From positions 124,001 to 188,000 of the forward strand of contig ML991807.1 of the NCBI GenBank assembly GCA_010094025.1: DNA of 64,000 nt, read 5' to 3'. Below are positions 8,722-54,169 of the stretch, in pieces. How positions within the stretch are numbered: position 1 is the stretch's first letter; each line of letters starts with the position of its first letter. Below the pieces are notes generated by a model that worked only from the letters and a program-made list of their open reading frames with translations, ran no database searches and was not told the origin of the DNA. Made by a program: the position numbers and the translations under genes. Source of the DNA: Viridothelium virens. Taxonomy: Eukaryota; Ascomycota; Dothideomycetes; Trypetheliales; Trypetheliaceae.

Positions 8722-11016
8722 TCATGCCTTGGTCAGACTCTTGCCTTCCTCAGCCTTCTGTATCCCGTATTTTTTAAGACGGATGGCATTGATGTTTATG
8801 AAACCGGCTGCGTTTTAGATCATCAGTCAGCAAAGCCGTCCGACACGGAGTTTAGGGCTGGAAGCAGTTGACAACTGTGGGAAGGTCGGGAGAGGTGTCA
8901 ATCTGAATTTGAGAACATACTTGTATCTATAGGGCTGAAATCAACCAGTGAGTCCATAGAGGCCTCCTCTGAGGAGTAGAGCTTCTCGGTCTCAGAGTTC
9001 CTGCTAAGAACAGACACAGAGCCTTTATAGCAGCGAAGTCGCACTTCCGCGTTCTAGCCAAGAATTAAGAGTTAGCAGTCAGCTCTGATGCGGTGGGCAC
9101 GGTTGTAATCAACGTCGTGGACAAGAGTCGGGGTTATGACCACATACCACTCGTCTCTGGCTGAAAACCAGAGAGTTCTCAATATACTCTCGTTCCGGTG
9201 AAAAGTAGAGTCCTGAATAGAGGAGCTTCGACCAGTGGTGAGTCACGAACTGATCGCGAAGGGAAATAACTTGGCCGTCCAGGGTCAGGGATTCAGCATC
9301 CAGGTGTGCGAGCCTGAGGATGGTCATGGCAGGCGAATCGTAACAGCCGCGGCTCTTTAATCCTATAAAGCGGTTCTTAGAACTCAGGTCAGCGGTCTGT
9401 GACATGGTGTCGGATTCGTCCGTTTAGGGACTCCTAGTCAGGGGCCCAAGGCGGCCCGGCCAATCCGGCAAAACGCAACAAACTAGAGAATTATTTTATG
9501 ACATACCTCAATGATATCAATTCTCCCGATACCAGCCCTTTTACCAATATCGTTGAGCGCGATAAAGAGCTCCAGGCTATCTGTATACTCCTTACCACCG
9601 ACTCGGAGTTTGACTGGCAGGCCCTGCTCGAAGAGAACAGCAATGTCAATGGGCTCATTAGGCGCGGCTTGGGGATCAACAGTGCGAGTCCACATGTCAT
9701 CTGGGGGAGGGATGGAGGGGTCCTCTAGAGCACCCGCCTCATAGCTGCAGTGGGCTATGTTGTCATCCATGCTGTATGGCTTGGCTTTGGTGGACGTCAC
9801 CGGAATTCCTGTAGCAGCGGCGTAAGAGATCAAGTCATTGCGACCTTGGAACCGGTTATAGAACTCCGGAACTCTCCAAGGAGCAATGATTTGGATCTTT
9901 GGGTTGATAGTGAGGAATGCCAATTCTGAATAAGTAACCTTGATCAATACGGTGGGCATGAGAGTTGGGAGTAGAATTGAACGCACCGAAGCGAATCTAA
10001 ATTTGATAGTTAGTATCAGATCGACTTGAGAAGCACAAGGATGGGGAAGCACCTACACCGTCGTTGCCTTTTCCCTACCATTTTTAAGAAGTCAGTCAGA
10101 TGTATCTCAGTTTTTACGGATAAAGATATTGTGAGCATTTCCTCCTGGCGGAGGCGGAGGCGGAAGTGGAAGCAGAAGGTGGAGAAGGAGGTGGAGCAGA
10201 AGGCGAAGGGCAAGCATTGCACCATTCAAAGGAGCAGGCCTCGCCGACGCCATCTCGTTCCTTGCTGGTTGCCGAGAGGATAGCAGAGATTAGGACAGCC
10301 GGAGGCGGCGGTTTCTCCGATTTTAATGATTAGAGAAGTACCGACGTAAGAAAAATAATTATCACGGATTTGTGAGGTTTTGTCATCGACATGAAGAATC
10401 CAGCGTACTTACGGTGCATCCATGGCTCACGAAATCACCTTTTAATGTAGAGTAAGTCCGGTGCAATCACTATCACGGGGACCGGTGATTGATCTCAATC
10501 AGCCCAGGTAGTAGGATACTTACAGCCTTCTTCTTGAGCCACGCGCATCTGCGCGCGAGCAATGACCGGACGGGCTAAGCTTGTCCCTAGATAATAAGCA
10601 GGCGATGAGCACAAACTTCGCCGACGAGGGTTTGCAGCGGCAACGCACCAAGCAAGCTGGGCGAGCGCCAATTAGCGAAGACAGGTTCAGAGGGTCAGGA
10701 AATTCGTACTATCTTCCTTCATATTGCGCGTTACACTGGACCGCACGGAAGCAAAGCTGTTCGACAAACTCGCGGCGCAAGTCCAGGATAACCATCTTCG
10801 AGGCACCAATCTTTTTCGCCTTGGCCCGAACCTCATCCCAGTCTTCCTCTTGGCCCACATCAGCAAGGAAGCAGACGACTTCATAATCCTCGTCCAGGAG
10901 CCAGCGCAAAATGCAGCTGGTGTCGAGCCCACCTGTGAGGTGTCAGTCGAGATTCCCTAAAAGCACGGCGAGTGCAAGAACTGACCGGAATAGGCCAGAC
11001 AAACTCTGCCCTTCAT
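8722..11016 (-). CDS. ARG1: Argininosuccinate synthase with four micro-exons, 11 exons
   Basis: This enzyme joins citrulline and aspartate using ATP to give argininosuccinate, the penultimate step of arginine synthesis. The model has exons 11016-10986, 10932-10710, 10656-10649 (8 nt), 10586-10524, 10438-10413 (26 nt), 10076-10059 (18 nt), 9996-9987 (10 nt), 9925-9507, 9375-9148, 9053-8921 and 8807-8722. All junctions are GT-AG and all phases agree, giving 414 residues, the normal family length. The PP-loop AYSGGLDTS spans exons 1-2. The citrulline-binding RYLLGTSLARP needs the 8-nt exon, and the ATP/aspartate loop HGCTGKGNDGIRFE is spread over the 26-, 18- and 10-nt exons. NRFIGLKSRG and KLLYSGLYFSPE follow. 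Compared with the usual loop HGATGKGNDQVRFE there are Ala-to-Cys and Gln-to-Gly changes, but the binding residues are kept. The 336-nt intron after the 26-nt exon is unusually long. The gene sits beside tailoring enzymes, so it may be a pathway-dedicated extra copy or simply the housekeeping gene. Confidence 0.88.
10140..10205. repeat. Purine-rich GGA/GAA low-complexity tract inside an intron
   Basis: The plus strand is almost purely GGCGGAGGCGGA- and GGTGGAGAAGGA-like triplets. In the sense strand of the synthase gene this is a pyrimidine-rich CCTCCGCCTCC tract in its longest intron (10077-10412). It is a microsatellite-like expansion and not a coding exon. Confidence 0.6.
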
Positions 11017-12235: not shown

Positions 12236-15200
12236 TCAAGCCCAAGCACACCAGCCTGTTCTCAGGTTAGAAAAAAGATCGAAGTGAGGCCACTCATGGT
12301 CTTACCTTGAAACAACATCGCTAGATTCCTTTCATCCGTCGCTTGTTGGATCAGTTCATTTACCGTTGCAGTTGTGCTAAGCGTTTTGTTCAACTTCCTC
12401 TGCACCACACTCAGAGCCCTATCTGCCTCTCCCGCATCATTCTTCTTTCGACTTTCCTCTCTCCCTCCAGACACTCCCTTCCCACCCTCACCAGCCGCAT
12501 CCGTAGGTCTGCTTGCTCCCGACTGCGCATCTTGCATCTGCTTAGCCTTCAACGGAGATACCGACCAGCTATACAGTGGATCATAGCGCAACACATTCAG
12601 CAACGTCATGATGCTACTTTGCTCTCTCCTCAGCGCATCCAGCATAAACTCACAGCACCGCCGAAACACGCCCTCCACGCCCGTAATCCCCATCCCGTCC
12701 ACCACGTCTCGTGTCAATCGAAACGGCACCACCTCTGGCATTGGCAGCACTCGGCCGGTCTCGAAAGCTACGCCCAGGTCGATGTGCACGACCTCACCGC
12801 TCCGCTCATCCAGTAGAATATTGTGGAGATGGCGATCTCCGAGCCCGAGCACGTGGCCCAGGATGGAGATGGCGGCCGTGCTACGGGTATAGGCAAGGCG
12901 TCGGGTAAACCATTCGTCTGGATCCGTGAAGCGCTCGAGGAAGAAGAAGCGCATGACCGGGCTGAAGCGTGCGGTGATGGCGCGGTAGGCCGCGAGTTTC
13001 TCGTCGGGGGATCGCCCGGCGACTTCGGCGATTTTCTTGCGAGCGGCGTCGTTACGGAGGTCTTTGGGGTGGTACCTTTCATGGCCGGGAATGAGGAACT
13101 CGTGGAAGGCTACCGAATTCTGCACGAATTCGATGATGCCGGCGTTCTTACCATGGGTATGAGAGCTATGCGAAGAATTTCCGTGCGTGTGGTGACCGAG
13201 TGGCACAACTTTGTATGTGCGGATGCGAAGGTTACGACGGCGAGTCTCGCGGTGGTTACGCATGAGATTGCTAACTTCCGCAAATACTTGCTCCATAATG
13301 GCGTCTTGGCGTAGCTCATCAGTTCCGCCTTTGTACTGGTGTAATCGTTAGCAGGAGGTGGAAAGGAGGTGATTGGGAGACTTACCAGTTGCTTGTAGAT
13401 TCTACCGTCAGTAGCAATTACTTTTAGAATCATTGGTGCACTCAATCCTCCGGCGACTTGTATTGTCGAGTCGAACCTGACCATTTTCGGAATGTCTTCA
13501 TAGCTGCCACTCGGCCGTACCTCAATGTCCATAGTAGTAGGCGGCACGCCAAGTCTGGCTGCTGTCTCCCCGGCTGTTATGGCTTCGGGCATATGTCGTG
13601 GCGAGAACTTTTTGCCATACTTCTTTACGATACTTTCAGTAGGTGAACAAGCCAACTTTCCAAAACACTCATTGGTCTGGAAAATCTTCTTCCATAATTT
13701 GCGCGATGGAGACTTCTCGAGTTGTCCGGCAAGTTTCTTCGCAGCTGAGTTACGAGAAATCGCACTCTCGTCCTTACCACCCGGGGTTTTCATGCCAGCG
13801 TAAATGTGGTACATGCCATGGTAGGGATGTTCGGTGCAGATTCGCAAGACCAGAGATTGTAAGAGAGATTGGAACTTGCTATCCTCATCCTGGATCCTGG
13901 AGGATAGCTGGTTCATCAGGATCACAAACTTCCAAGACGGCGTCGCTGCAAGATTGCGTTCAACGCTTTCGTTAGTAATGGAAGCATCGGCATTCTCCAG
14001 CCATAGCGCAAAAAACCGGAGAACATCGTTGTCATGGGTATCGCTTCGTGCTAGGGTGCGAAGATAATTCTCCAAGCTATGGCCCAAAAGTATACTTCGA
14101 CTATCCCGCAAGCGCATATACTCTTGATTGTCGATTTCAAACCACTGCTGAGCCTTCTTGAGATTATGCTTGAGCTCTTGTTTCCCACTACTGCTTCCGC
14201 GTTGGGCAGATAGCATCTTCTGGAGTTCCGTCATTTCGGTGTGTTTCTGGTTACGTAGAGTTTTGACACGTTCGAAATCTTCTCGGCCGTCCGGACTCTG
14301 CAACTGTTGATCACAGAAAGTTGCAAAGGTGTGGAAAACTTGGCCAGAGACTTTGCCATCGGCCCGGTCTCCCAAAGCCTCTACAGCAGGGTTGAGATAT
14401 GATTTGATGACTTCATCGGGTTTTTCGAGGCGCGCTTCAGCAACTTGATAACCCTTGACAACATTAGCAACGGATATGTAGATCGGCTGAGAGACTCACA
14501 AGCTGAGCGAGCAAAGAAGCTTTTGATACTGGAATATCTTGACGCCCAAGGTTTGACTCCCCTTGTAGACTTTTGAGTAACTTGATTGACGACATCATTT
14601 CCCCTTGATCCCACAGAACATTTGCTAGCTCAATTGTTCTAGCAGCTCCGACTTCGATCCCACATTTCTGGCATTCGTCGGTCAAATTTATGAGATGCGT
14701 TGTTGCAGATAACGAATCCTGAAAGGCGTCATGCTTTCGAGAGATCGCAGAAGATGCTAACAGTGCCTCAAGTTCGATAGTGCGACTTCCGCGAAGACTG
14801 AGTGGTATTATACGTTGCAATTCGTTGTTCTTGCTAACGGAGCTGAACGTGGTAACCCGGCAAGACATGATTTGGCGGACGTCTTCATACCTTATACATT
14901 GTTAGCTCAAATATGAAGCATGCCTGAAGATCTACATACTCTCCCAAGGGCATCCATCCTTGACGTGATTGCATGTTTGACCAAGTATCTCGGAGCGCGT
15001 CCGCACTGCCAGCCCTCATCACATCGCTTGTCTCTGTCAGTACAGCTAAGGCTCCGAGAGGGCCATGTAAGAGTGTGGCTGTGGGAGATTGGGATGTGAC
15101 CCCACGCATGCATTCTAGGAGGCCAGAGTCGAGACCTCTCAGGATGAGGCTCTGATCATGGCCTGTGTTAAGGGTCTGGAAAGTCTTGAAAAGCGTCGCA

Positions 15201-18200
15201 CTGGGAGGCTTCGCGGAGTCGGGAGGTCGAAGGTCCCACTGTTCCAACCTTCTGGCAGTGTCGAGTAGCGATGCAGCAATATTTTCATCCATTGCATGAC
15301 CTTGCTGTGCATTGACCAAAGATTGAGTGATACTATTGACATTTAGCCGATTCAGAGCCTGTAGAATACCCCGGTAATCCGTGGCATCAAAGTTGGCGTC
15401 GCGTCGAAGTTGACTGTCAAGTCTCGCGCCACGATAGAGGAGACTCTTAAAGCCATTGCTCTCATGCTCGGCCTTTATCATCACTGTGTCAAGGCTCGGT
15501 TGCTGCTCTACGCCATAGAATGCATCGGGGTCACTAATGTTTGTATAAACCTCCAGCAATAGGTCATTTGGAATGGGTGTCTTGATCGTAGAAGAGCGCC
15601 GCGATCGTCCAGACTCTAGAGGGGTGGTTATTTCTGTAAGGAGTAAGGCTGTCTCATACATTCCGCATCTAGATGCAGCCTGAGCTGCGGCAAGGTAGTC
15701 AAGGCTCAGCCATTGATCCCGCGCTGCTGGTGTTTCTTCGTCCGGGACCGGTTGCGTTCGCAGGTATAGTAGACCGCGTAGGAGGACCTCAACGTGTACA
15801 TTGCCTTCCTTGGAACTACGCTTGAACCATTTTTCACATAGGCTCGATATCTCTTGACGGACTCTTTCATTCCTCCCCTTTTCTAATAGCAAGACCTCGT
15901 GAAGAACAAATGGAAATATGCGTTCGGCAAGCTCTTCTGCATGTGACAGAATCAATGGTAGCGCACCAAGAAGCGCGTCTTCAGCGGCCGCGTGAGCCAA
16001 GGCGATTGTCAGTCTCTGTATCCATGTCTGTGCATCCGTTTGCGAACACTCGGGAAGGCTTTCTCGAAGGGAAGCTCTGATTTCTGACCAGTTGGGCGTT
16101 CGATCAGGGCTGCTTGAATCATTCCGGACAGCAAGGTTCAGCGCTTGGTGTAGATAGCATGGTAGCAATTGTTCGAATGCAAGTATCGCTCCAGGATCGC
16201 GGAATTGATGAAAACGCATATTTGCAATTCTTATAGTCCTCTCAGCATAACTAACCTGCTGTCTCTGTTCACTTTGGAAAAGGTCGAGCAGTGCCTTTAC
16301 GATTGCATTTTTGGATTCCGAGAGGCCAGACTGCCCTCTCTCTGTAGAACTGAAGGATGGGCGATGATCGTATCCGTAGTTCTCAATCTGACCTTGCGAG
16401 GCAAAGGTGCGACCCAGCAGTCTAGCAGACCAGAGTAGGAACTCATCACTGACCTTCACTCGCTGACAAATCCGAAGAATAGAAGTAGAGTAGGCCACGG
16501 CATCAGCGTCGGATGCGAAAAGGTCTTGGTTAGGGATGTCCGGTAGCTCAAACTCTCTACATAACATGTGCAATGCATTATCCCTAGACGGCCGATCCAC
16601 AAGACTAGGTGACCTGTTCTCATCGCTTAAGAGTTCCCGCAGCAGGTAACTTTCTGCAGAATCTCTGGCGGCGTTTCCGATTTTCCGAATTTGACAAGCA
16701 GCATGTATCATCGTTCGGAAAGGTTGCTGTAGACTGCCTGCGACATTATCGATAGGGAAGTCCTCCAAATAAGCACAAAACCACCGGTGGAAGCTCTGAG
16801 CTTTGTTCATGGTCGCCCTGTACTGGCTTTCCTGCGTTGTACTGTCTTGTTCAGATAGAAGAAAAGCGCGGAGTGAGATGAGAATGAGCAACGCGATTCG
16901 AGCAAGGAAATATGGCCGTTCGACTAGGGACGACTTTCCGTATGCGAAAAGATATTGTACAATACCAAGCGTATCCTCGGCACAGTGCTGATCAGTAAGG
17001 AAAGGTCGAAGTGTTTGTAGGAGCATCTCGAGAGGATATCCTTCCAAAGCAACGTCACCAGCTAAGCAGAGAACGACTCTTGCCTTCCGAATGACAGAAC
17101 ATGCGTGAAGAGACCCCAAAGCTGGATAGATAGCGTCAAATAGCGAGCGGAGAACGTAGACCAAGACTGACGATTTCCATAAGGTTGGGAGCTCCACGTT
17201 CGCTCTGTGACAAAGTCGATCAATCCCGTCCAACACAATCCGGCTCTTAAATAGAGGTTGCTGGTCATGAGGCAGAAGTGCGTTTGAGGAGCTGGTCATC
17301 TTGATCATATTAAGGATTTTAGAAGAGTATTGGAGGTCAGCGCGCTTTTGGAAAGCCTTTCCGATCTCCGTTTCTTTCTGCATCAAGGCGAGCATGTCAG
17401 CAAGAATACTAGGAAAGAGGCTTTTGATGGACGAGATCAGAACGTCTTTCCCGACAATCTCTTTGATAGTTTTCTCCCTGATATTCTTTTCCCGGTCACT
17501 TGACATTTCGCTAATGTCAGACATCAGACAATAGGCAGTGACCTTGCCAATACAGTTCAAGACCAGTTCATAGGGCGTGGTCTCGAGTAGCGATGCGAGA
17601 GAATCGAGCTCTTCTCTCTTTGGATGCATTAGCAGCTGCGCGGTAATTTCTTCTCTGTTATCTACCAGTAGCTGCTCTAAAGTGGAATATTCAAAGATTC
17701 CGAAAGGAATATTCTTGATCGACCGTTGACGCAGCCCAGTGAAAAGAAGTTGGGGGGCAAATAGCTTGAACAAAGCCCTTGAATCTCCGAGTGATAAAGC
17801 CTGTGTTAATTGTCTAGTGCAAAACTTAGCATGCGCATTAGGACTTGGCATCGCCCCGGCTGTTTCGAAGATGCTATAAACACAACGACGTAAAAGCGTG
17901 TGCCATCTAGAGCCAAGGCGTGTAAACGCGAGAAGTCTCAACGCCATTCCCTCAGGCCACGACGTGTCGTCTGGTAAACTTGCCTGAACATCGGCAAATA
18001 TATTTTCATGAGTGCTTAGGACGAAAAGATTGAACATTTCTGGAATTAATGCAATGACGTGATCTTTAACGGGCAATTCGCCAACTTTTAGAATTGAGAA
18101 CAACGTAGTTCGAACGGAAGGTAGGTTGAGCTCTTGGATCTCCGGGATATTTTCGTCCGTTCCAAAATCTACTTTATATCCCAGTAATTTCACAAGTAGA

Positions 18201-21200
18201 TCAGCAAGTTTGACTTGACTATTCGGCGAGAGCAAGTTCCCAGGTAGACCTGTGTTGACAAACCATCCGTACATGTCGATTGCGTCGTCAAACAGACTCG
18301 CTATTGAAGGATTTGTCCAGACTGTCGTGAGACTTGTCAATAATTCAAGGCAAAAGCTCAGGGCGACCTCGCAGCGCTCATACTCGTATGACATCAAGCA
18401 CTCGGTTGCGAAATGATCCAAAAATCTTTCAAGATCGACTTCGGTCATCCGGACACCCGATTGCAAGACGGGTAGCAGCATTCGTCCACACGCAAGAAGC
18501 TCAGGCGGTGATATAAAAATCAAGTAGTCCACGAAGCTCGAAGAAAGAAGATGAGAGTCGATGGAATCAACACTTAACTGCAAAGAAGCGTACAAGCGGA
18601 TGGAGACTGCTGTAGATGACCATTGTGATTGTGCGTCATTTCTGGCAGCGAGCTCACTTCTTGCTATATTCATAAGCTCTGTTTGCCCACTGAGGTGACT
18701 TGCCTGAGACTCCATTCCTGAGTCAACATCCATGACGTCGAGATCATCATCCAGTCCATCACCCTTGCTAGGATTACACCGTTCTTCCAAGGACGATGAG
18801 AAAATCTTTGCAATGTTTGATAGACTTTGTAGCATTCTTGGAGGATGATGTAGTGAAAAGACCGCGAAGACCGCCGGAGCATAAGCACAAATCACTTCCA
18901 TCATTACATTAACGTTCTTTTCGTCAAAGTCTGAGCGAGTCATGAGACCTGCAACTGTGGTCGAAAGGATTTGTGTTTGTTCTGAGAGCCTAACAAGCCG
19001 ACGAGTGTCTTGGAAGTCTTCTACGCAAGACATTTCCGTTGCCACAAGACAAAGGCTGGTGAGAAGTCGTATCATGTCCGCGTTGATATCCTGTGGCTTA
19101 TGTGAGTAGGTTGCGAGAGCATCTGTAGCTTGAGCTAGCTGTGAAAGGCAAAAATCGAGGAGAGCGCCATCTCGGTCCACAGAAGCTAGTCTCCTTGCCC
19201 CTTGAATAACATCAGAATCCTGGTACTTGGCTAATGAACTTGACGACCATTCAACGCCAAGACTGACATTGTCTTTATTCAGCAGATAGGATGTTAGCGG
19301 GTATTGTTGATGTCTGTGCAACCAAGCTTGGCAGACATGCCCCAAGACTGTATTATGTGTCTGAACGTCTTCTTGCCACGCTCTATCAGTGCACGCGTAG
19401 AGAAGTCGTAACACATCTCGGGCATTTGAGTGGTGAGCGGCTTCAGAAGCGTATGACCGAATGTTAAAGTTGCCTGTAGTTTGGTCAAATGCAATCAATA
19501 TTTGTGAATACAAAAGCTGGTCTCACCTGGTGTCCATTTTGCCTGAAGCCATTGCAAAACACGCGTGGACGTGACATCAAAAGCAGTACGACTTTCGGAT
19601 GAGCGCATCTTGACGATGAGAGATAGGAGAGTTGAAGACGAGTCTGTCAAGAGAGCTGGACCGTGAAGATTTGTTGAAGAAATGACCGCCTCAAGAGCTG
19701 GCATAGTAACGCTGTGTGAGACGAGTCTGAGACGTAAGAGAGATTCCGCAAGATGACAAGCTGCTCTACAAGTAGCGGTTGAAGTGAACTGTCGGATAGC
19801 CAGTTGCCAAGCTGTAGTCCACAACATTAGGTACTCCGAGCCAGCGGAAACTCTGAGCCATGCGCAACTGGTAAGAGATAGATTAGCTTCAATATCTGTC
19901 TGTGTACTGCAGAAACATACCTCGAAAGTCCGACCATAGCCCAAGTAGAGATTTCACTATTTTCGTCTGATGCAAGTGCGAGAAGTTTCTCTAGGATGGA
20001 GCGCAAATCATCTTCGTGTACCGGTCTTTGGCAAAGTCTGAATATCACAACTTGTAGCGAAGCCAGTCTTTGCTGAAACCCAGGAGCCTTAGTACGACGG
20101 AGAAAATCATGCAGATGCTGAGAGGTTTTTGGTTTTTTGTGATGATCTTCGCGTTTATGTGCATTCACTTGCTCTGCTTGTTGGTTCTGCAATTGATAGT
20201 CTTGACTTGCAGACAATTCTGCAATGAGGTACACGATTGACCATTGCATCTCGGAGCGCGCTTGACCGGTCCGTAAATAGAAGGTTCCGGTCCTGAATAC
20301 CTCGGTTTCATAGAAGGGTCCAAGGGACAGGCCCAAATCACTGAGTTGCAACTGGCCAAGAGAGTCTCTTTCGGGGCGACGGGAATATTCTCCGTACAAT
20401 ACGTCGACTAGACTTTCAATATCAGTATCGATTGGGGGGTTGTCTGCATTAAGAAGAAGTGGTATATGATCCAACACGTAAACAAGATAGATGAGTATCT
20501 CCTGGTTCAAAGCTGACTCCTTGGATGTCCACATTTCCTTGATGAGAGGTATGAGCTGTCTCAGTGTTTCTAACATGTGCTCTTCATTATCATGTCGGGT
20601 GCGAGCAAGGACAGAATTGATGACGGCAAAACCATCGTGATGTGCACTTGTGGTTTTACTGAGTAGCCCCCTTTCTCTAGTGGAGTTTAGAAAACTCAAG
20701 ATGCCGCCAAGAATGTTAGTTTCTTGGTCCTTTATGGGAGCATTAGGCGCCAATGTGAGTTGTTTAAAAATTGCCATGACCTCGATGACATCCCTAGCAG
20801 AGAGGGAAGGTTTCCCAGTTGTTGCAGACGACGCTTTGCCAGAGGTGTGCGACGACCGTTGTGCTAGTCCATTTGTATTGCTCGATGGGGTTCTCCCGAA
20901 GCTTCCAAAGCTAATTTTAGTTCCACTTTCATCCTCAGCATGGCAGAGTCCGGCGACGCAGAAATCGACGAGGTGATTCCAGAGGTCACGGGGTAGATGC
21001 TCAACATGAGCAGGATGTTCTGAAATTTTGCGCAGACATTTGAGATAGTCCGAAATTAGTGGCTCACAATATCCACTATCAGCCACTGGCAGCATCTGAA
21101 CGATGTGTTTAAGCAAAGAACACACAGAATTTTCTCGGATTCTCGTTACGCCAGTTTCAACGACGAGGCGAAGTACGCTGGCACAGTTCTCGAGTCGTCG

Positions 21201-21498
21201 TCCGGAAAGTTGTTTTACTTGGGCTCTCGTGGCTTCCAAATATGACTTTCGCTCGAGGGAAGCGAAATGGAATAACGCCTCAAAAATCTGATAAAATGCG
21301 GCATCTTTCAGAGGATCTACTTTGCCACTACGTCGATTCTGGCTGAGGACCTCTTTCAGCGCGTCAAGTCCGCCATTTCGCTCCTTCACACTAGACGACT
21401 TGACTTGATCTGCCAGCTAGCTTAGCATTTCTCCGTACTATGGATGGTCGCTGCAGTCCAGTTTTACCTAATATGCTCGGAATATCAACCCCCGCCAT
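12236..21498 (-). CDS. TEL1: Tel1/ATM checkpoint kinase (PI3K-related protein kinase)
   Basis: A very large serine/threonine kinase (about 2,850 residues) that senses DNA double-strand breaks with the MRN/MRX complex and maintains telomeres. A 31-nt first exon starting at 21498 ([10 protein letters not shown]) splices to [19 protein letters not shown], the N-terminal TAN motif of Tel1. A long helical-repeat solenoid follows (21467-14885 with a few introns), then the FAT region (14868-13600). The kinase domain contains [24 protein letters not shown] (catalytic loop) and [11 protein letters not shown] (metal-binding loop). The FATC tail NLAMLFQ is joined by a last short exon to GWCAWA and the stop at 12236. 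An unusual His-rich insertion lies in the N-lobe (13143-13196). The gene lies head-to-head with NUP192. No disruption is seen. Confidence 0.95.
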
Positions 21499-21927
21499 CT
21501 TTGAACAACTGCCTCACTATGGCAAAGTGAAGTTCTTCATACAGCGAGAGAGTCATTGTCGTAGGTGGTGTGGCTGATGTTCAAACACAGTTTTGACCGA
21601 ATCCTACACACTGGGACATGTCACTGGCCGAGCACACAGATTTAGTATGGCGACTGGCTTCCATGGACTCATGAAGAGTTGTGACGTTTGTCATGTGTCA
21701 ATTGTCACAATGCCACTCGAGAGGCAGTCACATGGACTTCTTTGGTGTAATGTGAAGCTCAAGATGTGTATGATGCTTTTCGGCAAAACGTCGGGGCCGG
21801 CGCGTGGCGCGTCTCACATTTTGTTGTTGCAGCTTGCCGGGGCACTAAATATGCTATCACACTCTGAAGCTCCATGGAAAGGCGCCAATTTCCTTCTTCC
21901 TCCAACAGCTAGCTACCTTCCAGAGGC
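21499..21927. promoter_or_regulatory. Divergent promoter TEL1/NUP192
   Basis: A 429-bp spacer between two opposite starts. It must contain both promoters and 5' UTRs. I could not pick out a clear TATA box or other defined site. Confidence 0.5.
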
Positions 21928-24900
21928 ATGGCCGAGTTCGATGGTCTCGAAGCCCTTGAGGGCTTACATCGCGATCTCTTGTCTTTCTCCGAATCCCAAA
22001 TATCTAACGTCGAACGGCTTGAATCAGAGCTTCAACAAAGAATAGGCGACTTCAAAAAGCTGTTGGACAAGCCAAAGAAGAACGATAAGAGCCGTCAAGA
22101 TCTCAAATCAAGTGAGCAAGGGTTCAAGACCACGTGTTTTGTCCAATGTGCTAATTCAATGCAGAAACTGTACTGCAAATACAGGATGAAGAATACCAGA
22201 TTAGCGGAGAGTTCACCGACGAGACTGTCGAGGTAGCAGACGCGCTGGATCTGGATGAATTGGAGGCTGCCAGGCTTTTGATCGCCTGCCAGGAAGAAGC
22301 CGAAGTGATAGATCGGAAACCTTGGATTTGCACGGTCATCAACTTTCATCATCGCCGACTTACCCTCCTCGAATGTTTACGAATAATATTCAGGATATCT
22401 GTGGACGACGATAGAACAGAAAGTGAACGAATCGCATTTCGTGGCTTCGTTGATATAATTCTTCACTCTAAGGACAAGAGCTTGGAGAAGGGCTCACAGT
22501 ACTGGCGCCGATGTCTCTCAAGCATGAGTGATATTGAAGTTTGGCTCCGCCAACTAGCTGAAAGAGCTATGACAATAAACATTGTCGGACAAAGTCAACT
22601 CATAAACTTCACTGAGGTTTTGGAAGTGCAGCGAAGATCGTTAATTCAGCAGCACGATGCTCTCAGCGCCATAGCAGCATACTTGACCAAAGGTAGTCGT
22701 ACGGGACCTGACGACTTTCGATACTTACTCTCTAAAACCAAAGCAATAGACCGATATGACGCGGTCCTTATCCATTACGTCCCCATCATAACAACTTCTG
22801 TTGACAGTCTGGGATCTGTCTATAGTACAACTCCATTAGAGGAAGCAAGATTGATACACAAAGCACTGATAGATCAGAAAGAAGTGGCTGCTTTTGGTGA
22901 CCAGAGAGAATCCGCGTCTTGGGGCCAACGCAATTTTTATGCGTTGACCTTATTCCTCTGGCTTGTGGCGTACAGTGGCAGGTACAAGGATGATGGGATA
23001 GGAACCCAAATACAGGGAGTTGATCTAGAAAAAGAAGCCGACGAAAGAGCCAGGCTCCTCTCAGAGGCCTTGCAGGATGGCGCCCTGCACTTGGCATTAT
23101 CGGTCTGTCGTGACCTTCAACCTATGCAATGGCTTGACCTTGCGAAGCAAAGTTTATTGACATTTCTCCTTCCCGAATCCACACCGTTACCTTTTGATTC
23201 AATATTGCCATCGGATGATTTCCAGGACCTAATCATGCGGCAATTGCAAATCTTTGTGCAATATTTCATTGACAACATGCCTCAGGAACTCCGGAAGCTC
23301 AGGGCCGAGGAAAACGACCAAAGGATGCAAATCTTCACTCGATACCAAAGAGGTCCGGCGGAATACGAACTACATGTAGAAAGATTTTTGGTCATTATCG
23401 CTTACGCTTTCGCCAACTATCCAGAGATGGCGCACGAGTTTTGGGATTCGGATTCACAATTCTATGGATTCCTGCAATGGGCTGCAAGAAGACAGTCCAC
23501 GCCGCTTGCAGCTGCTTTTTGTGAAGTTGTGCGATCGATATCCGAAGGGGAGGAATGCGCAGAGGCCGCACACAGGTTCCTCCTGGAGGAAGGTGCCACA
23601 GCTTCAGGACAGATTCGCAGGATGAGTTCGTTGAGCTGGAGGCAGATGTTTGAAGAGCTGCACTTCTACGCCTCCAATCTTAGAGACAGACCTTCTCCGC
23701 CCAAGAATGCTTTGGTCCAGTCAGGCAAACCAATTGAAGATCAGATTGCAGAACCTGAGAGCGCGCTCATGCTACAATGTTATCTCAAGTTAATTGCCCA
23801 CCTGTACCGGCAGAGCCCTTCCGCTCGGAACCACACGATCTACATGCCGGATTACGACGTTGTGGAGGATCTGCTGATCTTGTGTAGTGCTGGGTTAGAA
23901 AGTTACCTCCGGGCCTGCGCATATTCAGCCATGGCGGCGCTTCTGACTGGCAAGGACGAATTCATCGGACAAGGCATGTGGGAAAAGTTTGACACCTGGC
24001 TGACTGGACAGCATACTTCCAACACGGCAGTTCTCAGGATCGCTGGTGGTCCACCGAATCCTGTCATGGCCGAGCAAATGATATTTGAAACCGTCGCAGC
24101 TAGTTTCGAGGAATCCGTCGCATTCGTCGAACTTCTTGAGAGTCTTGTTACTCCATATGCGGACAGTTCAAGTCTCTATGACTTTTTGCCTTTTGCAGAA
24201 AATCTTGGCAGCACGTATCGCATGGCAGGAATTGAGCCTTATATTGATTTTGCCCTTGGACGTGTTCTCGGATACAAATCTACGGAGACACAAGATCCTA
24301 CCCAATTACGAATGCTACAATGGCATTGTCTAAACTTTGCGGTTCTCTGTTTGACGAGCTTCAATGAAGATCTCATTATATTCGCTAACAGATCGAATGT
24401 ACCTGTGGATGAAGCAATGAAGGTCTCGTCCCTAGCAGCATACGTCAAACTCCATCCGTTTGCGAGGACAATGGAGTGGTTTTTTAATGATCGTGTCATC
24501 GCGGCTTTGTTCATGGCTACTCACCACGATGTCGACGAGGTTAATAATGCTGCACCGAATTCGCCACTTGTCATGGCGCTATCGCGTGCTATTGAGGTCG
24601 TGGATCTTGTTATGCGGCTACAAGCAACTTACTTGGATATCGTGCGACCACTCATTAAAATTCAGGCTACGACGCGCAGTGCTCCGGTCGCTAATTCCGC
24701 TCTTGCCTCATTTGAAGATGCTATTCTCAACAATTTACAGATTGTCGTTGATCTAAGCCTCTACTGTGGCACAGGCCATCAAGACCTAACTTTCCTGTCT
24801 CTGCGCCTACTTGAAAGACTCTCTGCTTCCAGGAAGTTGGCAGTATCTAATGCAACCGGTGTTGGACTGCGGGCGGAGCGAAGCAGGTTGATCAGCGTCC

Positions 24901-27152
24901 TGGAGAAGGATGGGGAGTCTGAACGAGTATCTCGGTCGCTAGTTAAGAACATGAAAATTGACGAACGTGAGCTAGAGGCGGGGATCGCATCGCCAGGCTA
25001 TTCGCTCAAGACAAGCATTGTCACATTTCTGGATAACTGCCTCTCAGCATTGCCTAACAGGCCTACACTTGCCCATCTTCTCCTAGGATTCTCATGCGGC
25101 AATACCACTCTCGATATTCCCGAAGACGGTCTCTTCATCGAGGGCACATCACTGTTCCACGCAGTGAGAGATCTTGCAGTTGCCTACCCAGTCGCCGATG
25201 ATGTAACCCTCCTATCCTGGCGCAGCGCCATCCGATGTGGAAGTTTAGATCTTCTCAAAAAACTATGGGTAGCTCCTATCTCGTCCATATATACCCTGAC
25301 GGAGCTTCGTGCTGTCGACTTCTTGTTTGATCAAGCTATCCGACAGCGCATCATTGGGCCAGAAACGCTCTGGGATGGCATATCACTCTACGATCCAAAC
25401 TTCCTCATTACTGACGGGGCATTGGCGTTCCGATTTTTCTTGCAGGAGCGTTCGGTATTCTTGGACTATGTTGCAGCAGAGCTAAGGTCCTCTACTGAGA
25501 ACAATACTCCCTCCCTAAGCGCCCGTGTACAGTCCGCACTTCTTGGCACGACAGTCTTCTCAGACGGGCAACAATCAATCAACCCAAACATTTTTGATCT
25601 GTTCGACTTTGCGGAGATCGAGATTCAGGATGTTGGACCAGTCGTCTCACTTGACCTTAATTTTCTTCGTGGCCTCGATTTCGAAGTCTGTAAGGCAGAA
25701 CGCGAAGGTAGCTTTACGCTTTACAATATCGCCAGTACTCGACAACTCATCGAGTTAAAGCGCGACAGCCTTATCAAAGAGGGAAAGCTAGCTCACGAGC
25801 AGAGTGACATATTTCAAAATGAATGCGACCGTACTATAGGGCTATTGGTAGCACACAATCAGCACGCGCGGATTGCCACTGCATCTTCTGAGACTCTCGC
25901 CGCTTGGGTCAGAGTGGTTTCTGTTACCTTGGAGTGCTGTGTCTTCGAGCCTGCCACAAAGATATCGTTTATTCTACAGGCACTTCAGGTCATTATGCCC
26001 AAAATGGAGAAATCTTTCGCAGACAATCCGGCGATTGCAGTAAGTCTTGCTGGTCTAGCGCGTACCCTCCTCAGGTTTGTCGACTTCGACAGCATGTTCT
26101 CCCAGAAAGGTCGAGCTCTCGATTTCGCCAAAGATCGCCTTTCACAGCTCTTCCGTGTCGCCCTAACGGGTGTAAACGCCAACGAATCTCCAGCAGAGTT
26201 ACGGGAGATCTGTTACCAGATATGCTTCTGTTACCTGTCTGGCTCGAGCAAGGGACCAAAGGGCCGGTCGAATTTGGGGGCGCAGAACTTGCGCACTGTC
26301 ATGTCTGCCGGAGATCGACTCATCGATATCACTTGTGATGATGCCTTTGCTGGCCAAGGCAATTGTCGGGTATCAGCCACGATGATGTTGAGCACTTTGG
26401 TGCTGCTCGCTCAGCGAGAAGATTCTAAGTACATGATCGAATCGTTCGTTCGTCTCAACTTCATCGGCGTTCTTGTAGAGCTATTAAAACACATACCTTC
26501 TGAGCTTAGGCAAGCTGATATCAATCGTGAGTCTCTTAAAAGTCACATATATCATTCAAGCACTGATTAGATTTCGCAGGCGCTGCGATGCTCCTCCAGT
26601 ATTACGACGCCGCGCTCGCGCTGCTTTTACGTATTGCTCAGACTCGAGCTGGTGGTCCCCGCATTGTTGGCGTTGGCCTCTTCCAAGCACTCCGCGAATC
26701 CGAATTTTTCACAGCGGATCCCGACATCGGCATCGAAATGGCGAGCCAGAATACTCTCAAGAGCTATTTTGACCTAATGCTCGCCATAATCAAGATCGTC
26801 AACGCCGTAATTCTGGTCAATGGACCACAGCACGCGCAAGGCATGCACCAAGCAAGGCAATTTCTTAAGGAATACCGAGGAGTCATCGTCGCTGTTTTTA
26901 AGCGAAATGCAAACATTGGCGGCTATTTGCCTCAAAAGACGATAGACCTGAATGCATTAGTGGATAACTTCACGGTTTTGATGTCTGCGACAGGTTTTCT
27001 GGAGGTAAGCATAACTGCAGCCTAGACTTCTGATGAATATTCTAACGCAAAAGGCAGCACGAGGAGAGTCAGACTCCCCAACGATCACGTTTGACTGGTG
27101 CCTTTTCATGAGGTGTTGTATGTCTTTGGAGATCGTGGCACCCTGGGTTTGA
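21928..27152 (+). CDS. NUP192: Inner-ring nucleoporin Nup192/Nup205
   Basis: A scaffold nucleoporin of the nuclear pore inner ring; in known complexes it binds Nic96 and Nup53. Exons 21928-22111, 22165-26526, 26580-27004 and 27054-27152 agree in phase and give 1,689 residues, the family's length. The N-terminal segment AEFDGLEALEGLHRDLL and the following acidic QIQDEEYQISGEFTDE match the Nup205/192 N-terminus. The rest is an all-helical solenoid without catalytic motifs. The last intron has a CTAAC branch site and the final exon ends in EIVAPWV. It converges with MRP17 (217 bp apart). Confidence 0.93.
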
Positions 27153-50146: not shown

Positions 50147-53100
50147 TCACCGATCTTTCTCTCTCAGTTCGTCCTCCGCCGCCTTCACCAACGCCGGGAA
50201 CTCTTTCTTCACCCACTCCCAATAATCCCTCCAATCCCTGACCTCCATCCCCGACCCTTCCGCCGCCGGGACCTCTCTGCTGACCAATACACTCGCTTTC
50301 ACCACTCCTTTACTCTGCTCTTGCATGCGCTCCAAATCCTGCTTGACCGCATTCTCTTTCGGCTTCTGACTCAGGACAGAGCGAAACGCCTTCGCCACCT
50401 GCTCCAACCGCCTCACGCTCTCCTCCTCTGGCGCCAGCGTCAGCAGCTTCCCGAACATAAGCAGGCACAGCACGCGGATGTCGTGCTCATCGGTGATGCC
50501 CGCGACGACACGGTCGTAGAGGTTCGGTAACAGAGGCGACAGATGCGGGAAGGCGGTATCCATGAGGCCGTAGAGCGTCTCGTAGGCTGACTTGCGTAGC
50601 TCGAGACCATCGTCGACTTTGTGTTTGAAAGGCCCCATTTGGACCTCTCGGACGAGTTCCGGCCGGACGAGAGTTTCTTTGATGGCGAGGGGAATGAGCG
50701 TAGGGAAGTGTGGCGAGATGAGGTCGGGTTTATTGTGGGCGGCGGAGGTGAAGGTGGTGAGAGCAAGGCGGCGGTCTTCGAGCGAAGGGTCGTTGAGCAT
50801 GGTTGTGAGCATAGAGATGATGCTTGGCTTGAGATGTGTATCGTATGAAGAGTCGGAGTCTGCGAATGTGTAACGAAGTGCAGAGATGACCATGCCACGC
50901 GTATCAGCCTCGGAGTCTGTAAGGAACGTCTGTAGCTGCGGAATGTAGACCTTGGGATCGATAATCGCAAGTCTGCCAATACATTCGGAGCCGATTGCCC
51001 TATTATCCTCAGATTTGGAAGCTGCGACAATATTCTGCCACAAGTCATTCGCATAAGGGATAATGTCGGCCTCAGCCTCGCTGTGTTGCAATATCTCGCG
51101 TACGGAATGAAGTAAGAGGTACTTGCTGGTAGCAGCACCTCCCATGGTTGACAGAATGACCGGGAGATATGTCTTGATATTGCCAGCTCCTGCACGACCC
51201 AGCGCCACTGCAGCTGCCAGCGGCACCTTATCCGATGTGGCTGCAAAATAATTGGTGAAAAGATCAGGTTGCAAAGGTGAAGACGTGCCCATTCGCAGAC
51301 CAGCCTCACCAAGTACTGACAGAGCCAGGCACTTTCTCTGATCGTCCTTCGCAGTCCGGAGTTCGTTGATGAAATCGTCGAGCTTGACGCCCACACTAGG
51401 TCCACCAAACACTAGTAGTGTCCCAATGACCTTGCCGGTCAAATCAGGGTTGCCACCAACACCAACGTCTTTCAAGAAAGCTTGCATGAGACGCCCGCCA
51501 GCGCCCTGTTCGCCAATTGACCGGACGAGGATGAGCAGCGCATCCACCACCGGATCGCTCAGTGGTGTCGAACCTACAAAGCAGATTGCCTTGACAGTAT
51601 TATCATTAATGATGTTTGCAGCACTGTTTTTCGCAAGTGTTGCCAGGATGATAAGTGCTGGTCCAAGTAGATGAAGATCATTAGAAGTTAGCAGAGGGAG
51701 CAATAAGCTGACGACCTCTTCAACGGTCTTTTCGTCAAGATGTGCCCGAGTTGCTGGGTTCGCAACTAGCATGCGCAAAGTTGCCAAACTAGAACCCCTT
51801 AAGGACCGGCTTGCCTTCCGTAACTGCGCACCCAGCTCAAGAGCGACACCGGTCACCCACTCGGTCATGAACTCGTTCTTATCTTGAGCCAGCGCGGCCA
51901 CAGCATCAACTGCACGTACAGATGCCAGCCTCGTAAGTTCGTTCTTCATTCGATCTTGTAGGAGCTCCAGTCCAGCAAAACGCTTCTGCCGGTGTAACAG
52001 ACTCGCGCCCTGTGGCCCAGATGTGCGTCCGAGCAGGAGACCCAAGCTGTGTACGGCGCTTGATTTGACTTCAGTATCTGTGTCCTGAGCAGGAATGCGA
52101 TCTACAATCATATCGTAAAGGCGTTCCAGGTGCGTGGAATGATTCTGGCTAGGAGATTCTGAGCGAGGCGGAGTTAATGCCTTGACACACTGCTCAGCAG
52201 CATTGAGTGCCGCAACTGCAACTTTACTGAAGCGGTCTTTGATAGCTTTGGCAAGAGCTGGAACAATCTTTGCGAGATATGGTTCAAGATCTTTCGAAGG
52301 ATGTGCCTCGGCGATCACTGCTACTAAATGCAATGCTTCGATCCTCAGGTTATTAGCCGTTGCTGCGGAAGCACCAGTACTTGACACAGAAGAGCTCAAG
52401 GCCTCCAAAAGAGGCGTTACGATCTGATCCAAGAAACTTGAAAGCCCACCGTGCTCGGCGATGACAATATCTTTAAGTAATGTGAGAGAAGCCTGTTTCG
52501 TAGGTTGGGAGCTTGTCTTCAAGAGTTTGGAAACACCGCGAACGATGTCAGGGCTAATTTGCGCAAGACTTGCTTGAGGTCCTGTTTTTGGGCCGACAGG
52601 TTTCGGGGGCGACACGTAACCTGATGCAAGCGAAAGTTGAGTTGGGGTATCAAACATGCTAGCATCGCTGCCAACGCGTCTGCGCTTACGGCTTGGTGGA
52701 GGCCCCATCAGGCCGTCCTGGACAACTCCGTTCGTTGTGCTCGTTGTCATAGGCGCTTCCTCGCCAGTTCGTCTCACGAGTGCTGTCAAGCTAGACAGTA
52801 CTTCCAATCGAACATTCTCTTCCCGCTCTTTAAATCGCGAAATCAGGGCTGGTGCAATTTGAGAGTACAGTGTGCCATTTTCGAGCAGATCACCGCTACC
52901 ATGCATGGTTATTATGGTATAAATCACCTTTGCAGCACAGCGACGGACTTTCCAGCTAATGTCGTCTTCATCATCGAAACCAGCTTCTTCTTCAAAATCT
53001 TCATCTTGGTCGAATTCGTTGTCTTCATCCTCGTCTCGCGTGCCACCCATCTCGTCGTCGTCTTCTTCATCATTATAATTCGGATCATACTTTAGGAAAC

Positions 53101-54169
53101 GTAATGCTGCGTCAATGCTATCCGGGATATATGCAATCATGTCTGGACCACAGGAGGAAAGGAAGGCTTCCAGCGCTGTCAAAGCAGCTTCTCGAGCTTC
53201 ATCAACTTGTGGATCACGCTCCTCCTCATTCTCCGAATCTGCCATCTCCGAATCCAACTCATCCGCACTAAGAGCACTTATCACAAAGGGACATAGTGTC
53301 TTGAGGTATGGGCCGAACTTCCTTGGGATCGATCTCGCCATAGATCCCAGAATGGTGATGTATAGCTTTCGCTTGGCTGGCGTCAGATGCGGGTTGCGTA
53401 AGCTTTCAATTAAGTGCGATAGGAACGAGCTCAGAAGCGAGTCAGAGAAGTATGAAGCCAGGACAGACATGGCAATGACAGCTTTCTTTCTCAAAACGGA
53501 GCCTGAACGATCACTCTCGATTATTTCGCTCGTGATCTTCTGTAGGGCATATATTTCCGGCTCCTGAAGCATAGGTCCAAAACAGCGGGCAACTTCGGTG
53601 AGGACGTCGATGGCGTTGCTATCTGTCCCATTTTCCATGTCTACTTGAAGTAACCCTTTCGGGGGTTTGGGTAAATCCTTTCGTCCTGTCGAGACAACGT
53701 TGTATCCTACAAGACGAGGAATCAGAACCTTGGTTATCGCTGAGTGCGCATCTTGTACAGCCTTGGACCGAGGCACGCCCGGTAATGGTCGAGGCAAAGA
53801 AACAACGACTGCCCTGAGAGCAAGCGCTGGGACGGAATTATCCACGGTATTGCCCGTCTGTAGATTCGAGATTTTGTCTATCATCGGACCCAGTATTGTA
53901 TCCGGTGCCTTGGTCACGAATGGGCCAAGACACTTGACAGCCATATTTTGAACCTCTCCATTTGTATCATTGAGGGTATGTAGAAGCCCGTCCACGGTTT
54001 TGGCGGAGATGGTGTAGTCAGAGGATAGGAAGGTCGCATGGCCATTGTTCAGTATCTGCTGGAGATCATTGAGTGCCATATAACGGAAGTCTGCGTCTGC
54101 GTCGTGCAACTTCGGGAGCAGCGTAGCCACGTTGGCGGAGCTAGGGTTTTGAGGTATGCTGGTGGACAT
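50147..54169 (-). CDS. CAND1: Cullin-associated NEDD8-dissociated protein (CAND1/TIP120)
   Basis: A HEAT-repeat exchange factor that binds un-neddylated cullin-RING ligases and swaps substrate receptors. One exon of 1,340 residues, start MSTSIPQNPSSAN at 54169. HEAT repeats cover almost the whole length: ADFRYMALNDLQ, GEVQNMAVKCLGPFV, SWKVRRCAAKVIYTI near the N-terminus, and the TIP120 C-terminal domain with HKVDDGLELRKSAYETLY. A strongly acidic loop (DEEDDDEM to DDEDD, about residues 378-415) precedes the SWKVRRCAAK repeat, as in the family. It is the longest uninterrupted exon in an intron-rich window. It diverges from the mitochondrial protein gene at 54736. Confidence 0.93.
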   Translation of the reverse strand: MSTSIPQNPSSANVATLLPKLHDADADFRYMALNDLQQILNNGHATFLSSDYTISAKTVDGLLHTLNDTNGEVQNMAVKCLGPFVTKAPDTILGPMIDKISNLQTGNTVDNSVPALALRAVVVSLPRPLPGVPRSKAVQDAHSAITKVLIPRLVGYNVVSTGRKDLPKPPKGLLQVDMENGTDSNAIDVLTEVARCFGPMLQEPEIYALQKITSEIIESDRSGSVLRKKAVIAMSVLASYFSDSLLSSFLSHLIESLRNPHLTPAKRKLYITILGSMARSIPRKFGPYLKTLCPFVISALSADELDSEMADSENEEERDPQVDEAREAALTALEAFLSSCGPDMIAYIPDSIDAALRFLKYDPNYNDEEDDDEMGGTRDEDEDNEFDQDEDFEEEAGFDDEDDISWKVRRCAAKVIYTIITMHGSGDLLENGTLYSQIAPALISRFKEREENVRLEVLSSLTALVRRTGEEAPMTTSTTNGVVQDGLMGPPPSRKRRRVGSDASMFDTPTQLSLASGYVSPPKPVGPKTGPQASLAQISPDIVRGVSKLLKTSSQPTKQASLTLLKDIVIAEHGGLSSFLDQIVTPLLEALSSSVSSTGASAATANNLRIEALHLVAVIAEAHPSKDLEPYLAKIVPALAKAIKDRFSKVAVAALNAAEQCVKALTPPRSESPSQNHSTHLERLYDMIVDRIPAQDTDTEVKSSAVHSLGLLLGRTSGPQGASLLHRQKRFAGLELLQDRMKNELTRLASVRAVDAVAALAQDKNEFMTEWVTGVALELGAQLRKASRSLRGSSLATLRMLVANPATRAHLDEKTVEEVVSLLLPLLTSNDLHLLGPALIILATLAKNSAANIINDNTVKAICFVGSTPLSDPVVDALLILVRSIGEQGAGGRLMQAFLKDVGVGGNPDLTGKVIGTLLVFGGPSVGVKLDDFINELRTAKDDQRKCLALSVLGEAGLRMGTSSPLQPDLFTNYFAATSDKVPLAAAVALGRAGAGNIKTYLPVILSTMGGAATSKYLLLHSVREILQHSEAEADIIPYANDLWQNIVAASKSEDNRAIGSECIGRLAIIDPKVYIPQLQTFLTDSEADTRGMVISALRYTFADSDSSYDTHLKPSIISMLTTMLNDPSLEDRRLALTTFTSAAHNKPDLISPHFPTLIPLAIKETLVRPELVREVQMGPFKHKVDDGLELRKSAYETLYGLMDTAFPHLSPLLPNLYDRVVAGITDEHDIRVLCLLMFGKLLTLAPEEESVRRLEQVAKAFRSVLSQKPKENAVKQDLERMQEQSKGVVKASVLVSREVPAAEGSGMEVRDWRDYWEWVKKEFPALVKAAEDELREKDR

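Follow-up and report, generated by a model that had tools for sequence, protein, structure and literature searches.

We identified an argininosuccinate synthase gene of Viridothelium virens in which the active-site part is divided among micro-exons of 8, 26, 18, and 10 nt. The gene lies on the minus strand (11016-8722) of the window, the stretch of 64,000 nucleotides analysed here (C37:124001-188000 of a 30.7-Mb genome assembled in 175 contigs). Joining its 11 exons by script gave a product of 414 residues, with the ATG at 11016 and the stop codon ending at 8722. All ten introns begin with GT and end with AG; both the splice junctions and the length of the product had been foreseen in the original prediction and were reproduced. 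When internal exons no longer than 30 nt are counted as micro-exons, four exons of the gene fall in this class, all of them bordered by canonical GT-AG splice sites. Introns 2 to 7, six in number, are crowded into ~42 codons, at residue positions 84.67, 87.33, 108.33, 117.0, 123.0, and 126.33, and leave core exons of 8, 63, 26, 18, and 10 nt. In our reading, which we regard as very probable, this is a working synthase and the sole intact copy found, and its core, although cut by six introns, would be assembled from constitutive exons by intron definition.

The joined gene model, read on the minus strand, starts with exon 1 (31 nt, 10986..11016, including the start codon at 11016), intron 1 (53 nt, 10933..10985), and exon 2 (223 nt, 10710..10932), the 3' end of which reads GGA AGA TA. 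Intron 2 (53 nt, 10657..10709) runs from GTACGA to CGCCCAG with a branch-like CTAAT at -19 and is followed by micro-exon 3 (8 nt, CTTGCTTG, 10649..10656), which finishes a Tyr codon, encodes two Leu residues, and supplies the first base of a Gly codon. This exon is the sole exact solution at its place and is compatible with P0070, a protein model of Bathelium. A YTRAY branch motif was looked for in intron 3 (62 nt, 10587..10648, GTGCGT to ATCTAG), and none was found. Exon 4 (63 nt, 10524..10586) and intron 4 (85 nt, 10439..10523) lead to micro-exon 5 (26 nt, GTGATTTCGTGAGCCATGGATGCACC, 10413..10438), which together with one base of exon 4 encodes CDFVSHGCT. Intron 5 (338 nt, 10075..10412) contains a short low-complexity stretch, as seen in a repeat search. 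Micro-exon 6 (18 nt, GGAAAAGGCAACGACGGT, 10057..10074) encodes GKGNDG and is separated by intron 6 (60 nt, 9997..10056, GTAGGT to TTTAG, branch CTAAC at -17) from micro-exon 7 (10 nt, ATTCGCTTCG, 9987..9996), which encodes IRF plus one base. Micro-exons 5, 6, and 7 were also recovered by an exhaustive splice search, and the last of them is backed by relatives. Downstream of intron 7 (61 nt, 9926..9986, GTGCGT to TTCAG) lie exon 8 (419 nt, 9507..9925, extending to residue 266), intron 8 (131 nt, 9376..9506), exon 9 (228 nt, 9148..9375), intron 9 (94 nt, 9054..9147), exon 10 (133 nt, 8921..9053), intron 10 (113 nt, 8808..8920), and exon 11 with the stop codon (8722..8807). Exon 8 was additionally placed by a genome search, and introns 7 and 8 by fragments of relatives. 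The predicted coordinates of the 8-nt exon (10656-10649), the 26-nt exon (10438-10413), and the 10-nt exon (9996-9987) were exact; the 18-nt exon exists as predicted, but its position, given as 10076-10059, was 2 bases too high and is corrected here to 10074-10057. Elsewhere in the 64-kb window, long single reading frames at 50147-54169 and 14885-26570 encode 1,340, 1,542, 520, and 1,436 residues, which suggests that the intron density of the synthase is not general there.

The splice structure was examined by exhaustive enumeration of exact GT-AG structures that give the conserved peptide in the two broken stretches of the reading frame, introns shorter than 40 nt being disallowed. A single solution was obtained for RYLLG in the first stretch and a single one for CDFVSHGCTGKGNDGIRFE in the second, each being the micro-exon structure, and the expectation that the 8-nt exon restores RYLLG in phase was thereby borne out. 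None of 5,000 dinucleotide-preserving shuffles of the first stretch and none of 2,000 of the second yielded a solution; the same was true for the part with the 18- and 10-nt exons (0 of 2,000) and for the 10-nt exon alone (0 of 10,000). With a cruder mononucleotide shuffle, the first stretch gave a solution in 2 of 3,000 cases. Of 269 single-intron structures in the second stretch, two were in frame and stop-free, and neither yields the conserved peptide.

The product scored 467.7 bits against the argG equivalog TIGR00032 (cut-off 268.2) and contains complete PF00764 (1-162/162) and PF20979 (1-219/219) domains. It matched the structure of human ASS1 (2nz2) with an E value of 1.4e-135, and the alignment was ungapped through residues 80-130; the stretch encoded by the micro-exons aligns without gaps, in agreement with their predicted location inside the active-site core. 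Residues Y85, T117, N121, D122, and R125 are presumably involved in substrate binding. A whole-genome search with the protein returned two places, the window gene and one on contig C56, and no second intact synthase was found in this search of all 175 contigs. The copy on C56 (~184201-185232, minus strand) is decayed, with stops and an absent 5' part; its summed tblastn bits were 329.5 with Orbilia P0114, 291.4 with Aspergillus flavus P0049, and 256 with the window gene, so that it resembles the two former enzymes more closely than the latter. Argininosuccinate lyase (argH) was detected in the genome with a score of 556.9 bits; the matched stretch contains a single in-frame TAG, perhaps part of an intron. 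Since the window gene is the only intact synthase found and argH is present, it probably serves arginine synthesis in V. virens.

Residues 70-135 of the synthase align without gap or insertion in 114 of 120 relatives, the best 120 of 7,999 full-length matches. A search with exon 8 returned 131 proteins, and the following counts refer to the best 120 of these. The fragments among them were taken as unspliced genomic frames because they continue at their ends into unrelated sequence. Homology starts at residue 126/127, the position of intron 7, after an unrelated tail in 24 of the 120 fragments; 20 read across this site and 76 do neither. At the site of intron 8, homology ends at residues 264-269 in 61 of the 120, and 21 continue past residue 275. 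If these fragments are unspliced frames, introns 7 and 8 would be common to many relatives, though not to all.

Five of the 24 tails were at least 30 residues long, two had 20 residues, and 17 were shorter. The pattern AG-(A/G)TTCGNTTYG-GT (hyphens mark splice junctions) fits in one register in four of the five long tails (P0242, P0248, P0261, and P0344), which are interrelated and do not count as four independent supports. In each, the fitted peptide can be read as an AG, a ten-base exon that encodes (I/V)RF and contributes one G, and a following GT. From the second base on, the implied ten bases are TTCGCTTCG in P0248, TTCGATTTG in P0242, and TTCGCTTTG in P0261, and the differences are synonymous. 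No 10-nt exon was found in the 91-residue tail of P0360 or in the 20-residue tails of P0246 and P0263, the latter two of which may be too short to reach it. When the seven tails with at least 20 residues were shuffled, the fit arose by chance in 96 of 20,000 trials, and it arose in 45 of 3,950 control windows of 40 residues from CAND1. The readings of these tails, and those of P0054 and P0070 given below, were framed after inspection of the proteins concerned. When intron 7 of the window was compared with that of relatives, the number of shuffles (out of 2,000) that scored as well was 0 for P0242, 0 for P0249 (over 11 residues only), 27 for P0246, 45 for P0248, 86 for P0245, 900 for P0344, and 1,916 for P0261; the low counts for some relatives speak for descent of intron 7, which P0344 and P0261 do not support. 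Among four fragments that start at GKGND, an AG-GGN acceptor at residue 117.0 can be fitted by eye to P0313, P0320, and P0348 and does not fit P0307, so that the starts of these three could agree with the intron 5 acceptor. A separate 26-nt or 18-nt exon received no direct support in any relative examined. DNA of relatives was also searched for in viral contigs (11 pattern matches, none from relatives) and in genome contigs (64 pattern matches at 24 loci, all with bacterial titles).

Two public models are listed for Bathelium mastoideum, P0054 and P0070, both from MAGs and both broken in the core. P0070 has ACSVCHCDVSRFLWVSNLTASS instead of GRYLL. Its insert, ACS followed by V, fits G-C(C/T)TGCTCG-GT, with the first G from exon 2, and the insert, running on to CAG, would fit the 8-nt YLLG exon followed by unspliced intron 3. 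Control proteins matched this pattern at 12 of 160,019 positions, and when the insert was shuffled 20,000 times, 100 shuffles matched at the first residue. In P0054, RYLLGTSLARP is intact and the break lies further on, where RFVS fits GACCAG (or GACGCG) followed by (A/G)TTCGTTTCG, that is, the 10-nt exon in spliced form. P0018, which clusters with Bathelium at 100/100, has an uninterrupted core on a 1,432-base contig. The gene had been expected to be invisible to most gene predictors; both Bathelium models are indeed broken in the core, but each seems to retain one tiny exon. Core residues are lost or gained in other public models as well: P0074 (Cenococcum) lacks FVSHG, QCNAQYEGRY is shrunk to H in P0104 (Niveomyces), and P0053 (Letrouitia) has 24 extra residues. 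These changes are probably annotation errors at introns. Comparison with orthologues, proposed earlier to date the introns, gave a divided answer on the micro-exons: frames of relatives can accommodate the 8-nt and the 10-nt exon, so that traces of two or more of the four appear to be present in relatives, whereas neither the 26-nt nor the 18-nt exon was seen as a separate exon and some relatives seem to lack these introns.

A spliced counterpart of the gene may be present among the relatives. P0241, on a 48,915-base contig, carries exon 8 with intron-like sequence on both sides, and P0001, on a 2,175-base contig, holds all 414 residues in one uninterrupted frame; the two are identical at 140 of 140 residues over exon 8. 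P0001 therefore most likely represents a transcript, already spliced, of the corresponding gene in a close relative, although it might instead be an intronless gene copy. P0080, P0081, and P0082 (83-86% identical), whose contigs measure 21-33 kb, keep one open frame between about residues 19 and 342 and, judged by eye, leave homology there at the intron 9 site. They look as if all introns between about residues 19 and 342 went together and the intron at 342 was kept. P0265, which groups with P0018 and P0054 (SH-aLRT 99), is open from residue 101 to 266. If P0080-P0082 and P0265 are unspliced frames, some relatives are without these introns and intron presence is patchy.

The kinship of the genome was assessed with the CAND1 homologue at 50147-54169, whose closest named matches were Bathelium mastoideum (82%), Bogoriella megaspora (76%), and Glonium stellatum (66%). 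Bathelium belongs to the Trypetheliales in the Dothideomycetes, and fungi of the Trypetheliales are lichen-forming, as V. virens probably is. The window synthase was nearest to P0005 and was 91% identical to P0004 of Glonium and at most 82% identical to Bathelium-type sequences, so that the synthase tree is at odds with the kinship given by CAND1 (82% for Bathelium, 66% for Glonium). A tree in which the window and Bathelium synthases were held together was rejected (p-AU 0.0142, for a group picked after a first tree). The names in the synthase clade belong to several fungal classes, and the mixed clade may reflect transfer or old paralogy.

The first broken stretch could also be read without the 8-nt exon, through one 94-nt intron (10709-10616) that gives RYLCSSPAYYLGTSLARP, an in-frame insert of seven residues. 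Among seven single-intron structures, this is the only one in frame and stop-free. We nevertheless consider it very unlikely, since its acceptor, GCGAAG, has no pyrimidine tract and the pyrimidine-richer CTTATTATCTAG comes after it, and since the six of the 120 best-listed relatives whose core is not free of gaps and inserts do not have that insert either. In addition, the insert of Bathelium P0070 matches the 8-nt exon and then an intron, and seven more residues would alter the spacing of what we assume to be the citrulline-binding loop. Even less probable, in our estimate, is a dead gene, its core broken by insertions with GT-AG ends that are coincidental or leftover. The second synthase copy of the genome is decayed, but the six core introns of the window gene are all GT-AG and phase-preserving, the splice solutions are unique, and the residues encoded by the four micro-exons match those of P0001; the genome search gave no further intact synthase, whereas argH is present. 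The weak points of the micro-exon structure are intron 3, for its missing YTRAY motif, and intron 2, whose donor GTACGA looks weak.

Recent, independent gain of the introns in V. virens, for example from introner-like elements, would account for the three relatives at 83-86% identity that seem to be without all introns between residues 20 and 342, and such elements are known from Dothideomycetes, as summarised in PMC4457414. We judge this origin unlikely. The 861-base region of the intron cluster has no second copy in the genome, although diverged copies could escape the search, and introns at residues 126.33 and 266 are found in many fragments, with intron 7 resembling that of P0242. Many similar genome copies would mark an introner-like element; the search with the intron cluster returned the query place only, and no inverted repeats were found within the cluster. 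Recent gain of all introns is overturned for introns 7 and 8 by the fragments of relatives, and introns 2-6 may have been gained independently. We favor an inherited cluster, of which introns 7 and 8 and the 10-nt exon, at a minimum, would descend from an ancestor common to V. virens and other ascomycetes of the enzyme clade; some relatives would later have lost introns, perhaps through mRNA-templated gene conversion, with loss as the presumed direction.

In fungi, introns measuring 50-60 nt are probably recognised whole, across the intron. The 8-nt and 10-nt exons are each flanked by introns of 53-62 nt, a size fit for intron definition, and the earlier concern that exon definition should be very hard therefore loses its force. 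Each intron would be recognised across itself and the tiny exons would be included constitutively; we infer this inclusion in the mRNA of V. virens, and the order of splicing, from the gene model. Neighbouring splice sites around the micro-exons are only 8-26 nt apart, and spliceosomes could hardly flank 8 nt simultaneously; adjacent introns would therefore leave one after another, each removal fusing a micro-exon into a larger exon. Skipping is predicted to give a stop after 84 residues for exon 3, after 140 for exon 5, and after 154 for exon 7, and loss of the 18-nt exon 6 would keep the frame and remove GKGNDG. All four micro-exons are thus needed for the frame or for a conserved motif. Retention of any of the ten introns would lead to a stop within 43 residues of the junction, after 84 residues in the case of intron 2. 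Skipping of the 8-nt exon joins TA to GGA and creates TAG, and unproductive splicing could in this way set synthase output, for example in response to arginine. The early stops on skipping exons 3, 5, and 7 or on retaining any intron accord with such a device, as does a glucose-dependent microexon switch described for Trichoderma in PMC11121469. We find it improbable, since any frame-shifting exon would behave likewise and P0080-P0082 and P0265, seemingly without introns, manage without it. It is just as doubtful that the cluster was long kept in several ascomycete lineages with the 8-nt exon acting as a skip-to-stop valve that tunes the synthase. Constitutive inclusion remains our preferred reading.

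Four micro-exons in the active-site core of a metabolic enzyme had been called remarkable for a fungus; fungal micro-exons down to one nucleotide are already on record: according to PMC12940212, CYP621A of Fusarium has a one-nucleotide exon and CYP5141A1 of Phanerochaete an 8-nt exon. The synthase exons resemble these in being tiny fungal exons within a conserved motif, critical for the frame, hard to annotate, and recognised through relatives, one of them intronless. They differ in that the exons of PMC12940212 belong to P450 genes and the Fusarium exon has read support, whereas the synthase has four within ~42 codons of a primary-metabolism enzyme, predicted here from genomic DNA. In Trichoderma, glucose decides the inclusion of an Xlr2 microexon and two proteins are made; according to that report (PMC11121469), fungal microexons had previously been tested only in Schizosaccharomyces pombe. 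Like the Xlr2 microexon, which is conserved in relatives, those of the synthase occur in a filamentous ascomycete, were at least partly missed by gene models, and have canonical sites; for the 8- and 10-nt exons, conservation in relatives is also indicated. A switch of the Xlr2 type requires an in-frame length, and of the four lengths only 18 is divisible by three, in contrast to 8, 26, and 10; since these three exons shift the frame and skipping of the fourth removes GKGNDG, a useful shorter protein is not to be expected. In plants, microexons of 1-15 nt are conserved and often misannotated, on a large scale, and a plant peptidase M1 gene has adjacent microexons of 5 and 12 nt (PMC8831610). 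The synthase shares with them tiny exons in core motifs, in part with signs of conservation, and their misannotation, and neighbouring microexons were thus already known; the exons reported there are from plants and other genes, and the synthase has four in one stretch. Hosts of introner-like elements outlined in PMC4457414 belong to the same fungal class, but the synthase introns, unlike such elements, have no second genome copy. No report of micro-exons in argininosuccinate synthase was found in the literature searched (titles and abstract openings). What is unusual is the density, with four micro-exons in ~42 codons of a primary enzyme, together with the evidence that relatives share at least the 10-nt exon.

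These results have consequences for annotation and for the study of fungal splicing. Public fungal gene models can drop the catalytic core of a universal enzyme, and since both listed Bathelium models are broken in the core, claims of pathway completeness made from such annotations can be wrong. With exons of 8 and 10 nt between introns of ~60 nt, in an enzyme that is presumably required for growth without arginine, the synthase gene is an extreme natural test of fungal splicing and would offer a compact system for studying the order in which crowded introns are removed.
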